Assembly: GCF_038023995.1 (NCBI RefSeq)
Contig: NZ_CP150660.1
Coordinates: forward strand, 2,726,501-2,790,500
Direction: 5' to 3'
Source of the DNA: Polaribacter atrinae
GTDB taxonomy: Bacteria; Bacteroidota; Bacteroidia; Flavobacteriales; Flavobacteriaceae
Length of the DNA: 64,000 nt
Position 1 is the first letter of the stretch. Each line of letters starts with the position of its first letter. Below are positions 47,055 through 59,499 of the stretch, in pieces. A program made the translations under genes and the position numbers. The notes beneath the pieces are model-generated. The model did not search any database, was not told where the DNA came from, and worked only from the letters and a program-made list of their open reading frames with translations.

Positions 47055-47621
47055 TTATATTTTGTGAAGAATAGGTGTGGGTTTATTACTTTTAAAACTC
47101 ACACTTATTTTTTTTCCAAAATCGTTTACTTTTTCCCAATTGGTAAACTCTATGGGGTCTTTAGAATTTGTTGGTCCATCTGTTAATTTCATGATTAATT
47201 TAATCATAATGCTGTCAATTATAGAGTATGATTTATAATCTAATTTACCAGCAAATACTTCTAAGAAATCAGGATTCCAATTTGTATCCTGTATGAATTT
47301 AATTAGATAAGGGTTTGTAGCAGTTGTGTTCTTATCTACTTTTCTTGCTACTAAATTAACTGAGAAGAAGGCTGTTTTTATTCCTTTAAGTTGCTCTTTG
47401 TTTTTTAAGATAAAGTCATAAATCTTTTTGTTATGTTTTCCGTATCTAATACTAGCACCAATTATTAGGGTATGAAATTCAGATACATGACCAATAAAAT
47501 TTTCAATTGAAAATAGTTCTGTTTTTATCTGTTCCTTCTTGAAATCAGCACTTAACTTTTCGCAAATTTTTTTAGTTTGTCCGTCTGTAGAGCAGTAAAT
47601 GATTCCAATTTTTCTTTTCAT
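47055..47621 (-). CDS. HemG-like flavodoxin-domain protein (menaquinone-dependent protoporphyrinogen IX dehydrogenase family)
   Basis: This 188-residue protein has a flavodoxin fold: KIGIIYCSTDGQTKKICEKL for FMN phosphate binding near residues 4-23, LIIGASIRYGKHNKKIYDFI, and a HemG-like end with SIMIKLIMKLTDGPTNSKDPIEFTNWEKVNDFGKKI. These match the HemG group, which oxidises protoporphyrinogen IX to protoporphyrin IX with quinone as acceptor in heme synthesis. Other heme genes are absent from the window. It is convergent with the PLP-enzyme gene. Confidence 0.87.
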   Translation of the reverse strand: MKRKIGIIYCSTDGQTKKICEKLSADFKKEQIKTELFSIENFIGHVSEFHTLIIGASIRYGKHNKKIYDFILKNKEQLKGIKTAFFSVNLVARKVDKNTTATNPYLIKFIQDTNWNPDFLEVFAGKLDYKSYSIIDSIMIKLIMKLTDGPTNSKDPIEFTNWEKVNDFGKKISVSFKSNKPTPILHKI

Positions 47622-47930: not shown

Positions 47931-49139
47931 TTATTTTATTAATTCGTAAAAGTTTCTTTTGCCTATCTTTATTTTCATACCTGGTCGTATTATAATTTCG
48001 TTATGAATTTCTTTGCTTTTTTTTAAGTCAATTTGAACCGCTCCACTTTCAATTAATCTTCGTATAGCAGATTTTGATAATCCTTTTTTTAATTGAACAC
48101 ATAAATCTATCAACTTAATAGTCTGGTTTACGTGTTGTATAGTATTCATTATTACAGGTTCAAACTCTTTATTTTCAATTTTTTTATTTTGAAATTGCTT
48201 TACAAAGTAGTCTTCTGCATCTTGTGCTAGTTTACTATTATGGTATTGTGTAATAATATTTTTAGCAATTATTTTTTTTATTTCCATTGGGTTTTCACCA
48301 TTTGTTAATCTGTTTTTAATAGTTTGTTTTTCGTTAAAAGAGAAATCGGTTGTTAAGTGTAAAAACTCTTCAATCAAACTATCAGGGATGGACATTGTTT
48401 TCCCAAACATATCTTTGGCATCATCTGTTAATCCTATAATGTTGTTTAGGGATTTACTCATTTTTTCTTTTCCATCAAGTCCTTTTAATAAAGGCATACA
48501 CATTACAATTTGTGGATTCATTTTAAAAGTTTCTTGTAATTTTCGTCCCATTGTACAATTAAAAAGTTGATCAGTTCCTCCCATTTCAATATCTGCTTTA
48601 ATTTCTACAGAGTCAAATGCTTGAAGAATTGGGTATACCAACTCGTGCATTGCAATAGGTGTATTTTCTGTAAACCGTTTGTTAAAGTCATTTCTATGCA
48701 TAAGTTGGGCAACTGTGACTTTTGATAATATCTGAATTACTTCTGTGAATGATAGTTTATCTAACCATTCAGAATTAAATACAATTTTAACTTTATCTAT
48801 GTCTATAATTTTAGATAATTGATTTATGTATGTTTCTGCGTTATGCTGAACTTCTTTTACTGATAATGGCTTTCTACTTTTGTTTTTTCCTGTAGGATCA
48901 CCAATTCTAGCAGTAAAATCTCCAACTAAGATGATGACTTGATGTCCTAAATCTTGAAATTCTTTGAGTTTTTTCAATACAACGGCGTGTCCCAAGTGTA
49001 AATCTGGGGCAGTTGGGTCAAAGCCAAGTTTAATAATTAGTTTTCGTTTCTGATTTTTAGCTTGTTCTAACTTTTCTTCCAACCCATTTTTTGGAAGAAT
49101 AATTTCTACGTTTTCTTTTAATCTATTTATTGTTTCCAT
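47931..49139 (-). CDS. tyrS: Tyrosyl-tRNA synthetase, TyrRZ-like
   Basis: This 402-residue class Ib synthetase charges tRNA-Tyr. It has IIKLGFDPTAPDLHLGHAVVLKKL with the HLGH version of the HIGH motif, VILVGDFTARIGDPTGKN, FDSVEIKADIEMGGTDQLFN and GKEKMSKSLNN (the KMSKS loop), followed by a C-terminal S4-like domain (LSKSAIRRLIESGAVQID). The KFGxDPTxPDLHLGH style belongs to the TyrZ group rather than the form I usually associate with the housekeeping enzyme of Flavobacteriia, so it may be a second copy. It is preceded by a leader peptide and terminator that appear to control its transcription by attenuation. Confidence 0.95.
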   Translation of the reverse strand: METINRLKENVEIILPKNGLEEKLEQAKNQKRKLIIKLGFDPTAPDLHLGHAVVLKKLKEFQDLGHQVIILVGDFTARIGDPTGKNKSRKPLSVKEVQHNAETYINQLSKIIDIDKVKIVFNSEWLDKLSFTEVIQILSKVTVAQLMHRNDFNKRFTENTPIAMHELVYPILQAFDSVEIKADIEMGGTDQLFNCTMGRKLQETFKMNPQIVMCMPLLKGLDGKEKMSKSLNNIIGLTDDAKDMFGKTMSIPDSLIEEFLHLTTDFSFNEKQTIKNRLTNGENPMEIKKIIAKNIITQYHNSKLAQDAEDYFVKQFQNKKIENKEFEPVIMNTIQHVNQTIKLIDLCVQLKKGLSKSAIRRLIESGAVQIDLKKSKEIHNEIIIRPGMKIKIGKRNFYELIK

Positions 49140-49150
49140 ATTTTTTAAAT

Positions 49151-49182
49151 AAAAAAAGCCCGAGCAAATGCTCGGGCTTTTT
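49151..49182 (-). terminator. tyrS: Intrinsic terminator in the tyrS leader (attenuator)
   Basis: On the minus strand a 14-base stem (49182-49169 with 49166-49153, core GCCCGAGCA) is followed by a run of seven T, 11 bases before the tyrS ATG. It lies upstream of the gene in its own direction, so it must regulate tyrS rather than end another gene. Its 5' arm can alternatively pair with TGCTCGG at 49245-49239 in the leader. Confidence 0.9.
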
Positions 49183-49205
49183 AGTTATGTTATAATTTAT
49201 AAGTA

Positions 49206-49310
49206 TCAGATATTATTTGAAGTATATACATAGCCATTCCGAGCAGATATTATTTTGTAATAATAAGTACTGAAATAAGGAAGGCGTAATATGTTGTTCA
49301 ATTTTTTCAT
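49206..49310 (-). CDS. Tyrosine-rich leader peptide controlling tyrS
   Basis: A 34-codon open frame starts at ATG 49310, five bases after the predicted transcription start, and ends at TGA 49208-49206. It begins MKKLNNILRLPY, continues FSTYYYK and ends GYVYTSNNI. Six of 34 residues are Tyr (12, 16, 17, 18, 27, 29), including three consecutive Tyr codons. The segment TGCTCGG (49245-49239, codons 22-24) lies just after the Tyr run. It is the exact complement of the 5' terminator arm (49175-49169). Ribosome stalling at the Tyr codons under low charged tRNA-Tyr would leave this segment free to form an antiterminator. The arrangement is the classical amino-acid attenuator. It is inferred from sequence only. 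Confidence 0.8.
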   Translation of the reverse strand: MKKLNNILRLPYFSTYYYKIISARNGYVYTSNNI

Positions 49311-49319
49311 TCTCTATTG

Positions 49320-49349
49320 CAAATGTAATTTTAAATTTTTATTCTGCAA
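49320..49349 (-). promoter_or_regulatory. tyrS: Promoter of the tyrS leader transcript
   Basis: On the minus strand TTG (49349-49347), then exactly 19 bases, then TACATTTG (49327-49320) match the Bacteroidota consensus TTG-N19-TAnnTTTG. Transcription should start near 49315, almost at the leader-peptide ATG. Confidence 0.75.
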
Positions 49350-49434
49350 TTTTTTTTGTAAGATAACTGTGTTTTAACTTGTACCTAAGGTTGTTGTGTT
49401 TCCGTACAGTAATTTTTATTTCACCGTAGATTTT

Positions 49435-49932
49435 TTATCCTCCACCATTTAATTGATTAATTAATGTTCCGTGCATAATTAAAAATGCTGGATAGTATGT
49501 GTATATAATTAATTCATTTAAATCAATCAATTCTTCTGGTTGTTTTATGATTTCACAACTTATTTCAAAAACTGAAAAATTGCCTTTAGTCTTTTTATAC
49601 TTTAGTAAATGAATTTTATTATCATCGTATAAGTTAAATTCCTGTTTAAAGCTATTTATCTTTAAGATGTATTTTTTTTCAAGTCCTTTTTGATTAATCG
49701 TAATTATACTATCGAGAAGCCAATTAAAATTGATTGAGCCAATCGTTTCTGAATTTTTAATTATAGAATATTGAAATTTTTCCCACCACTTATCTTTTGT
49801 TTTAAACTCAATAGAATCTCCTAAATAATTTATTTTTCCAATAGCGTTTGAATCAGATGTTAATTTGCAAATAGTCTTACCATTTTCATTAATTTCAAAA
49901 TAGTATTTGTTAAAGTCTGTTTTTATATTCAT
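49435..49932 (-). CDS. Hypothetical protein, possibly tubby-like/LURP-one-like fold
   Basis: This 165-residue protein has no signal peptide. It is made of regular beta-strands such as KYYFEINENGKTICKLTSDSNAIGKI and WEKFQYSIIKNSETIGSINFNW, with a C-terminal helix (ELIIYTYYPAFLIMHGTLI). The strand rhythm recalls tubby-like or scramblase-type beta-barrels with a central hydrophobic helix. I do not recognise a named family, and this is a fold guess. It lies upstream of the tyrS leader in the same direction. Confidence 0.6.
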   Translation of the reverse strand: MNIKTDFNKYYFEINENGKTICKLTSDSNAIGKINYLGDSIEFKTKDKWWEKFQYSIIKNSETIGSINFNWLLDSIITINQKGLEKKYILKINSFKQEFNLYDDNKIHLLKYKKTKGNFSVFEISCEIIKQPEELIDLNELIIYTYYPAFLIMHGTLINQLNGGG

Positions 49933-50212
49933 ATCATTGGTTTTACTATTTGAAGAAAATAATATGCAAAAGTTATAATTTTTCCTGATTATTTTTTGTT
50001 TTCCGAATTTGGGTTCAATGTTTCTACATGTTTATGTATCAATAATTTCGTGATTAAATAGTGAATTTAGTAGACAAAATATGAAGTACTAAATACCGTA
50101 GGAATTTTCCGAATAAATTAAAACCAATAATAAAATTTATTTGGTGTTGGTTGTAGTTATTTTTCAAGTGTTAAGCAATTTTTTTTCACATGATGTTTGT
50201 AACTGGCATTAT

Positions 50213-50579: not shown

Positions 50580-51803
50580 CTAAATATCTCTAGATAATAA
50601 TACATTTTTAGTGTCTTTGTCTACCTTATTTAACTTCTGTAAAGCAATGTCTAATGGGTTTATAATCTCCATTAAATCTTTTCTTCTTACATGCGTATAA
50701 ATCATGGTAGTTTCTGGTTTTGCATGTCCTAATAAAGATTGAATGTATCTAATGTCAACACCGTTTTCTAATAAGTGTGTAGCATAACTATGTCTTAAAG
50801 TGTGTGGTGTAACTGTCTTTTTAATATTAGCTCTAGTACAGCTTTTTCTTAAAAATTGTCTAACACTTTCTGTGCTGTATTTTCCTCCATTATGTCCTTC
50901 TACAAAATAAATCTTTGGTTTGTAAGAATAGTAATAGTTAGATAATAGAGGCAAAAAACTATCAGCTAAACTAACATATCGGTCTTTTCTACCTTTGCCA
51001 TTTTTTACAATCAACTGTTTTCTTTCAATATGAAAATCTACCAATTTTAAATTTGTAAGTTCACTAATTCGTAATCCACAAGAGTAAATTAATGCTAAAA
51101 TTGCTCTATGTTTTAAGTTTTGTGTGCATCTTATAATTTCTAAAACTTCTTCTTGTGATAATACACTGGGCAATTTTCTAGATTTCTTTGGTCTTTCTAA
51201 TACTAAATCATTAATTTTTGTTTGTGGAGAAAATATAATAAAAATCTTTAAAGCACTTATAAATTGTCTCTGAGAGCTAATTGAATAATCTCGTTCTATA
51301 AAAACTTTTTCAATAAACAGTTCAACACTTCTATTGGTAAGTTCTTCTAAAGGTGTTTTTGTGTGGAAGTTTATAAAATCGGCAACAAAAAAAGTATACG
51401 TCTGTATTGTGCTTTTACTGTATCTTTTTCCTTTTAAAAAAAGATAAAAGTTATTCAGTAGTTTTTTCTGATCATCCGTTAAGTTTCTTTTAAAAAGTAT
51501 TTTTTTACTTAATTTAGAGGTATCAACCGTTGTTATGTTTTTAAAAAGAGTGGTAATTGTATTTAAGTTTTCTGGCGTGTCTTTTAAATACCAGGCAACT
51601 AATGTGCTACTCCAATAGGTATCTTTTACAGATTTTACAAGGGCAACGAGTTTATTATTAAAAGTAAATTTTAATAAAAGCTGATCCTCTTTTCTGTGAT
51701 TTTTTTGTTCTAGATAAATGGTTGGTAGTCTTTTCAAGATATTTTCAGTTTTATAGCACTTTAAATATAATGAAAAAAATAGTATTAACTTATTTATTTT
51801 CAA
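50580..51803 (-). CDS. Tyrosine recombinase/integrase
   Basis: This 407-residue protein is a tyrosine recombinase. It has a SAM-like core-binding domain about residues 105-200 (DDQKKLLNNFYLFLKGKRYSKSTIQTYTFF) and a catalytic domain with YSCGLRISELTN (Arg245), TPHTLRHSYATHLLENG (His334, Arg337, His338), LLGH (His360) and nucleophile Tyr369 in ETTMIYTHV. No in-frame ATG precedes the conserved part. The start is TTG at 51803 or TTG at 51737. It resembles XerC/D-like chromosomal integrases of Bacteroidota. It lies next to an islet bounded by duplicated sequence, so it may have mobilised this region. Confidence 0.92.
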   Translation of the reverse strand: MKINKLILFFSLYLKCYKTENILKRLPTIYLEQKNHRKEDQLLLKFTFNNKLVALVKSVKDTYWSSTLVAWYLKDTPENLNTITTLFKNITTVDTSKLSKKILFKRNLTDDQKKLLNNFYLFLKGKRYSKSTIQTYTFFVADFINFHTKTPLEELTNRSVELFIEKVFIERDYSISSQRQFISALKIFIIFSPQTKINDLVLERPKKSRKLPSVLSQEEVLEIIRCTQNLKHRAILALIYSCGLRISELTNLKLVDFHIERKQLIVKNGKGRKDRYVSLADSFLPLLSNYYYSYKPKIYFVEGHNGGKYSTESVRQFLRKSCTRANIKKTVTPHTLRHSYATHLLENGVDIRYIQSLLGHAKPETTMIYTHVRRKDLMEIINPLDIALQKLNKVDKDTKNVLLSRDI

Positions 51804-59402: not shown

Positions 59403-59475
59403 GAAGCTATTTCCTGCTTTTCACTATATCTTTTTGCAGAAAAAGCAAAAAGGATGCCGTTTCAATCAGGGCTAG
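59403..59475. repeat. Intergenic repeat with CTTTTTGC/GCAAAAAG stem
   Basis: Between the thioredoxin-like gene and a convergent lipoprotein gene lies a sequence with CTTTTTGC (59430-59437) and GCAAAAAG (59445-59452). It is flanked by GCTATTTCCTGC and CAATCAGGGCTAG. I recall very similar sequences scattered between genes in many Flavobacteriaceae. Dispersal has not been tested here. Confidence 0.5.
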
Positions 59476-59499
59476 AACTTGGTTGTAGAATTTAAAGAT

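Follow-up and report, generated by a model that had tools for sequence, protein, structure and literature searches.

Vecchione and Sello are said to have shown in 2010 (J Bacteriol 192:3565) that the indolmycin-resistant auxiliary tryptophanyl-tRNA synthetase of Streptomyces, TrpRS1, is under ribosome-mediated transcriptional attenuation, and the control codons and hairpins of its leader are reportedly arranged as in the leader described here. The latter precedes, on the minus strand, a tyrosyl-tRNA synthetase (TyrRS) gene of Polaribacter atrinae, which we call tyrS2 and which lies in the window, that is, the whole stretch of 64,000 nucleotides that was analysed (contig NZ_CP150660.1, positions 2,726,501 to 2,790,500). 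Streptomyces TrpRS1 is the closest precedent for the tyrS2 leader. As far as the available part of the source goes, both systems concern an auxiliary aminoacyl-tRNA synthetase (aaRS) standing beside a divergent housekeeping enzyme (PMC9437257). The tyrS2 leader differs in that it serves tyrosine, belongs to Bacteroidota, is conserved as a peptide and has a predicted near-leaderless start; compared with TrpRS1, tyrS2 is at most a candidate for resistance. Attenuators in front of aaRS genes also include, in the accessible portion of another report, gamma-proteobacterial pheST and, as predictions, Streptomyces trpS and leuS (PMC1262725). These share with the tyrS2 leader the regulatory codons, the competing hairpins and the intrinsic terminator, and serve other amino acids in other phyla. 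In Flavobacterium psychrophilum, which belongs to the same bacterial family, leader-peptide attenuation, the same inferred class of mechanism, has been proposed for amino-acid biosynthesis operons, and some aaRS mRNAs carry structured 5′-UTRs; unlike the tyrS2 leader, the attenuation cases are biosynthesis operons, and the available part of that source names no tyrosyl-tRNA synthetase (PMC9723704). The literature searched, which covered few subscription papers and no supplements, described no leader of this kind in front of a Bacteroidota TyrRS gene. The novelty suggested in the initial annotation has to be qualified, since pheST, trpS and leuS, as well as attenuation in F. psychrophilum, precede it as far as the accessible text of those sources goes. 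As far as we searched, the amino acid, the phylum, the widely spread cassette and the constraint at the peptide level are new.

On the minus strand of the window, a -33-like promoter TTG (49347..49349) is followed, at a spacing of 19 nt, by a -7 box of the Bacteroidota TAnnTTTG type, TACATTTG (49320..49327), located 9 nt upstream of the ATG of a leader ORF. This ORF, MKKLNNILRLPYFSTYYYKIISARNGYVYTSNNI (49206..49310, with the ATG at 49310 and the stop ending at 49206), has 34 codons, six of which encode Tyr, including Tyr16-Tyr17 (49260..49265) and Tyr18 (49259-49257). An intrinsic terminator lies downstream, with a stem pairing approximately 49182-49170 with 49165-49153; its 3′ arm together with the T tract (region 4) occupies 49151..49166, the T tract itself 49157-49151, and the ATG of tyrS2 (47931..49139, 402 aa) is found at 49139, 11 nt past the T tract. 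Region 2 (TGCTCGG, 49239..49245), the antiterminator 5′ arm, is exactly complementary to CCGAGCA (49175-49169) within region 3 (GCCCGAGCA, 49169..49177), which is both the terminator 5′ arm and the antiterminator 3′ arm. The promoter, the Tyr-rich frame, the terminator, its distance to the tyrS ATG and the exact complementarity had all been noted in the initial annotation and were found again at the same positions. In addition, MFE folding and inspection gave an inner extension of the antiterminator, in which GGCTATGT (49228..49235) pairs with ACATAACT (49183..49190) with one C-A mismatch. Region 1 (CGCCTTCCT, 49278..49286), corresponding to codons 9-11, is the predicted 5′ arm of a protector helix, the partner of which comprises the last GG of region 2 and the following AATGGC, to 49233. 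The fold energy of the 173-nt leader was -37.7 kcal/mol (z -5.5; none of 200 shuffles equalled it), a large share of which comes from the terminator.

Three features are not visible in the window sequence on its own, namely the identity of tyrS2 as a second TyrRS, the non-conservation of the third Tyr and the conservation of the leader as a peptide. We compared 86 leaders, consisting of the best 80 of 228 relatives, the window and 5 further genomes (L086 duplicates L016), and the leader ORF was present in all of them. In 77/86 leaders, a TAnnTTTN box ended 3-12 nt upstream of the start codon, compared with 92 of 1458 control windows, and the strict TAnnTTTG form in 53; no Shine-Dalgarno-like motif was detected within 20 nt upstream of the start in any of the 86. 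Because the box sits so close to the leader start and such a motif is lacking, a near-leaderless mRNA is expected. Leaderless mRNAs amount to 5.5% in F. psychrophilum, according to the available part of that study (PMC9723704). The run of three Tyr codons emphasized in the initial annotation exists in the window, but the conserved signal is the pair Tyr16-Tyr17, which is Tyr-Tyr in 86/86 leaders, as opposed to Tyr18, which is Tyr in 32/86. Codon 16 is TAT in every leader and codon 17 varies between the two Tyr codons. TAC makes up 61% of the Tyr codons of tyrS2 (227/370), and yet codon 16 of the leader is always TAT, so that slow decoding may be favoured at this position. Just two Tyr codons are present in 12 of the 86 leaders.

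The leader peptides, 24 to 37 residues long, share the consensus MKxLNxILRLP[FY]FSxYY, in which L8 and P11 are invariant and L4 (85/86), R9 (85/86), L10 (84/86) and F13 (85/86) almost so. The codons of the conserved residues vary freely, including CTN/TTR switches at Leu. Among the 66 distinct leaders, pN/pS was 0.18 over codons 2-17 and 0.07 over codons 4, 5 and 7-13, compared with 0.90 over codons 18-24 and with 1.5 and 1.7 in the other two frames, values that are rough because pS is near saturation. Sets of 15, 19 or 34 diverged representatives gave 0.18-0.21 for codons 2-17 and 0.88-0.98 for codons 18-24. The sharp rise after codon 17 indicates that peptide-level selection ends at Tyr17. 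The leader peptide itself is under selection at the amino-acid level, beyond its Tyr codons. An antisense gene as the origin of the codon pattern was rejected, since the opposite strand has no generally open frame: over codons 1-17, its three frames are free of stops in 8, 0 and 1 of the 86 leaders, respectively. The constraint on the peptide is not explained by counting Tyr codons, and nascent-chain-assisted stalling would predict it. In this respect the simple attenuator model of the initial annotation, which accounts for the Tyr codons and the arms, left the peptide-level selection unexplained.

ErmCL, TnaC and SecM are arrest peptides that make contacts with the ribosomal exit tunnel. As in these peptides, residues upstream of the supposed stall site of the tyrS2 leader are selected and none after it; in contrast to them, its motif is apparently unrelated and the arrest is only supposed. 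To our knowledge, the motif resembles no known arrest motif. The leader might alternatively be a drug- or metabolite-dependent arrest peptide of the ErmCL or TnaC kind, MKxLNxILRLPFFSxYY, whose ligand would be a TyrRS- or ribosome-directed antibiotic, or tyrosine, bound to the ribosome, the level of Tyr-tRNA being secondary. The constraint of codons 4-14 as amino acids with synonymous change left free, its abrupt end at Tyr17, the unconserved third Tyr and the leaders with two Tyr codons only would all suit such a peptide. We nonetheless regard it as unlikely, because a conserved pair of Tyr codons at the supposed stall site, in front of a TyrRS gene, directly fits the sensing of charged tRNA, and because such a peptide has no known ligand.

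Past codon 18 the reading frame drifts: the core of region 2 lies in one frame in 50 leaders and in another in 34, and was not found in 2. A stretch complementary to the terminator 5′ arm was present between codon 18 and the terminator in 81/86 leaders at p<0.05 (each leader against 200 simple shuffles), so that the complementarity between TGCTCGG and CCGAGCA first noticed in the window extends beyond chance to its relatives. The best such stretch begins at leader index 61-67 in 79/86 leaders, and in 6 of the 81, all from Chryseobacterium, it was at index 54 and not at region 2. The five leaders with p>0.05 were L016 and L086, whose identical sequence had its terminator misplaced by the script; L077 (5 bp, p 0.075); and L087 and L088, from one genus, which have lost the region 2 core. 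In L088 (G296:C9), the tyrS2 orthologue is broken by several in-frame stops, and the leader keeps the conserved N-terminal part.

Covariation was analysed in the 38 of 86 leaders that were aligned. In the antiterminator, 87% of the cells were paired, with CG 24 and UA 14 at columns 68/153 and UA 25, UG 12 and CG 1 at columns 69/152, and sliding the arms lowered the pairing to 46% or less. Its covariation score of 0.207 was reached by none of 500 shuffles, and neither the pairs changed on both sides (354/500) nor the pair types (500/500) exceeded the shuffles. For the terminator, 98% of the cells were paired and 4 pairs had changed on both sides, with no excess of pair types over shuffles (148/500). 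When leaders were folded only to the terminator 5′ arm, region 2:3 belonged to the MFE structure in 82 of 84 (L027, without a recognised arm, and the duplicate being left out); the exceptions were L087 and L088. These folds carry inner helices that differ by lineage, and their energy had a mean z of -2.1, being near 0 in Flavobacterium leaders. The locus combines an intrinsic terminator with a mutually exclusive antiterminator that shares its 5′ arm, two of the features expected of a leader-peptide attenuator. The conserved Tyr frame and the covarying arms that the initial annotation suggested looking for in relatives are both there, which excludes non-conservation and supports its reading of the leader as a leader-peptide attenuator. 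The same results bear on the proposal that the ORF encodes a small functional protein and that the terminator is a separate, constitutive element uncoupled from it. Such a protein would account for the strong purifying selection on the peptide, but selection spans just 17 residues of a peptide whose length varies from 24 to 37, the RNA arms and not the reading frame are kept past codon 18, and region 2:3 covaries; we consider this proposal extremely improbable.

The stretch at region 2 that is open to pairing with region 1 reads GGAAUGGC or GGGAAG. Across 80 leaders, the cognate 1:2 duplexes had a mean energy of -12.0 kcal/mol compared with -10.8 kcal/mol for cross-pairings, 1.2 apart, and the p values against 30 shuffles ranged from 0.03 to 0.90. 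A T after the CGG of region 2 occurs only in L007, L017 and L084, and all three carry the partner A; the partner A is uncompensated in L025, L074 and L076, and a G is uncompensated in L024, L053 and L069. The helix is predicted in many leaders, but L025, L069, L074 and L076 have it in a disrupted or weak form. Region 1 may well form a protector helix.

T-boxes act by direct binding of tRNA. A scan of 48900-50000 against Rfam produced 50 sub-threshold matches, nearly all on the terminator hairpin, and none at the gathering score; by Rfam, the leader shows neither the T-box consensus nor a specifier loop. A T-box or a protein-binding leader with a merely incidental small ORF has a parallel in Bacillus subtilis tyrZ, which, in the part of the source at hand, likewise encodes a second TyrRS and is conditionally controlled in its own right, there by a T-box, a sensor of tRNA charging, and by MarR (PMC9437257). 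Unlike tyrZ, tyrS2 has a leader that is presumably translated. This alternative is very improbable, because no Rfam family covers the leader at gathering score and because its ORF is selected at the protein level, with the selected part ending in invariant Tyr codons.

The anatomy of the leader, its conservation and its linkage to tyrS2 are drawn directly from sequence comparison, as are the covarying pairings 2:3 and 3:4 and a degree of compensation in 1:2. They point to a ribosome-mediated transcription attenuator that very probably induces a backup TyrRS, tyrS2, when charged tRNA-Tyr drops. From them we infer where transcription starts, that the ribosome stalls, that read-through results and what induces it, in the following way. 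Transcription would begin at about the leader AUG. When charged tRNA-Tyr is scarce, the ribosome would stall with its A site at Tyr16 (UAU) or Tyr17 and, given the size of a ribosome footprint, would cover approximately leader index 28-62. Region 1 (24-32) would then be hidden in part or for the most part, and region 2 would stay exposed. In 79 leaders, region 2 starts at index 61-67, directly downstream of a ribosome stalled at Tyr16/17. Exposed region 2 would pair with region 3, the terminator 3:4 would be blocked and tyrS2 would be transcribed. When charged tRNA-Tyr is plentiful, the ribosome would move on, region 1:2 would pair, the terminator would form and transcription would end. As a further step, the conserved chain LNxILRLPFFS may aid the stall from within the exit tunnel. 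The switch must be kinetic, because the full terminator outpairs the antiterminator core, with identical core sequence. The textbook masking of region 2 by a ribosome at the stop codon does not apply in the window, since the stop lies 30 nt beyond region 2.

The initial annotation had named the target simply tyrS. The target is indeed a TyrRS gene, but an auxiliary and patchy one. With the TIGR00234 model, 20/20 tyrS2 carriers tested were found to have a second TyrRS that scores above cut-off and whose open frame spans 430-449 codons, and a housekeeping tyrS as the controlled gene was rejected because another full-length TyrRS is present in all of these carriers. The best matches of the tyrS2 protein from the window were the TyrRS chains 6bqy (312 bits) and 1h3e (297 bits), most others scoring 99 or less. 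It carries the motifs HLGH and KMSKS, which we take to mark TyrRS type 2, and the housekeeping TyrRS of the same genome (L185) carries HIGS and KFGKT, presumably those of type 1. tyrS2 is thus a second, divergent enzyme beside a housekeeping one, as is characteristic of auxiliary aaRS. A motif like LRLPFF was absent from 10 housekeeping TyrRS loci (L177-L186), which had few YYY matches and none upstream of those genes. Some TyrRS match was obtained in 388 of 397 genomes of the same family, and a close match to tyrS2 (62-100% identity) only in the genome of the window itself and in G395, G013, G244, G093 and G296, the last one interrupted by stops; the next listed matches were ~30% identical, which is also the level of identity between tyrS2 and the other TyrRS of the family. 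Around tyrS2, a gene for a XerA-like tyrosine recombinase is located upstream (50580-51803; 214 bits, just below the model cut-off of 220). A hemG-like gene for a menaquinone-dependent protoporphyrinogen IX dehydrogenase lies downstream on the same strand (47055-47621); none of the other tyrS2 loci has a relative of this gene within 1.5 kb on either side. A minus-strand Flavo-1 RNA maps to 59406-59477 with 73.1 bits, above the gathering score of 42.

Leader and gene occur together. The leader was found 166-191 nt upstream of tyrS2 in all of the best 80 of 228 relatives, the window and the 5 further genomes, distances that end at the start of the tyrS2 match and hence, in some rows, a few residues into the protein. 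In the family of Chryseobacterium (presumably Weeksellaceae, since its genome G647 coincides in position with the Chryseobacterium contaminans locus L023), 226 genomes were compared, of which 61 had tyrS2 (E 1e-90 or better) and 63 the leader (E 1e-4 or better); all 61 were among the 63, and in 61/61 carriers the leader was on the same contig and strand, 166-189 nt upstream of the tyrS2 match. Two loci are relics: in G1000 (L226), an intact leader and terminator precede a tyrS2 whose frame is cut short at 87 codons, and in G870 (L227), a decayed leader without the terminator 3′ arm is followed by no tyrS2 in the 4.5 kb examined. In a sample of 395 genomes from the phylum, tyrS2 at 70% identity or above was present in 3 genomes, the same 3 that gave a strong leader match (E 6e-16 or better; next best 3.1e-4). 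The leader pattern matched in 52 of 299 family genomes, a rate similar to that of a backward control pattern; of 30 pattern loci examined, 26 were chance-like, and the real leaders of this set (the other 4 and the window) occurred only before tyrS2, in 5/5 carriers. Strong matches to the leader HMM were found solely at tyrS2 or its relics. No leader variant with other control codons was detected in the genome samples searched by pattern and by leader HMM. In a midpoint-rooted tyrS2 tree of 85 rows, Arenibacter, Gelidibacter and Chryseobacterium are each scattered over well supported groups, and Sphingobacterium is placed, weakly supported, next to Vaginella. Frames flanking the 86 rows within 1.5 kb fell into 65 clusters, 15 of which span more than one label; just one flanking frame, in L007/L018, is common to two named genera (the leader frame, the duplicate L086 and same-genus genomes without a species name being disregarded). 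The scatter in the tree and the unshared flanks fit a horizontal spread of leader and tyrS2 as a single unit. As for a mobile vehicle, plasmid and phage records gave only matches below 60% identity, and the 4 leader-pattern matches in viral contigs were all chance-like.

tyrS2 probably replaces the housekeeping TyrRS when the latter is inhibited or starved. Certain second copies of aaRS confer resistance, as IleRS2 to mupirocin, SerRS2 to albomycin and TrpRS1 to indolmycin, and TyrZ excludes D-Tyr, according to the accessible part of the source (PMC9437257). The patchy, horizontally spread tyrS2 can be likened to these copies. By this analogy, there is about an even chance that tyrS2 serves to tolerate a TyrRS inhibitor; that it copes with tyrosine scarcity is possible though doubtful, and that it excludes D-Tyr or an analogue is a faint prospect. 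We also put forward, tentatively and at less than even confidence, a hybrid sensor in which the conserved nascent chain LNxILRLPFFS would prime arrest at the Tyr pair that begins with UAU, two such codons then being enough to sense the loss of charged tRNA-Tyr, for instance through an inhibitor of the housekeeping TyrRS, and to switch on a drug-tolerant spare TyrRS. The arrest peptide would act as an amplifier, and leader and gene would have spread horizontally as a cassette through Bacteroidota.

All in all, covariation supports a probable leader-peptide attenuator of a TyrRS gene in Bacteroidota, and the gene behind it encodes a spare enzyme, a hint that tolerance of TyrRS inhibition may be inducible. 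The constraint on the peptide reaches exactly as far as the Tyr pair, which suggests that an attenuator responding to charged tRNA may be combinable with an arrest peptide. Should the spare enzyme prove inhibitor-tolerant, that would matter for the use of TyrRS as a target of drugs in these bacteria.
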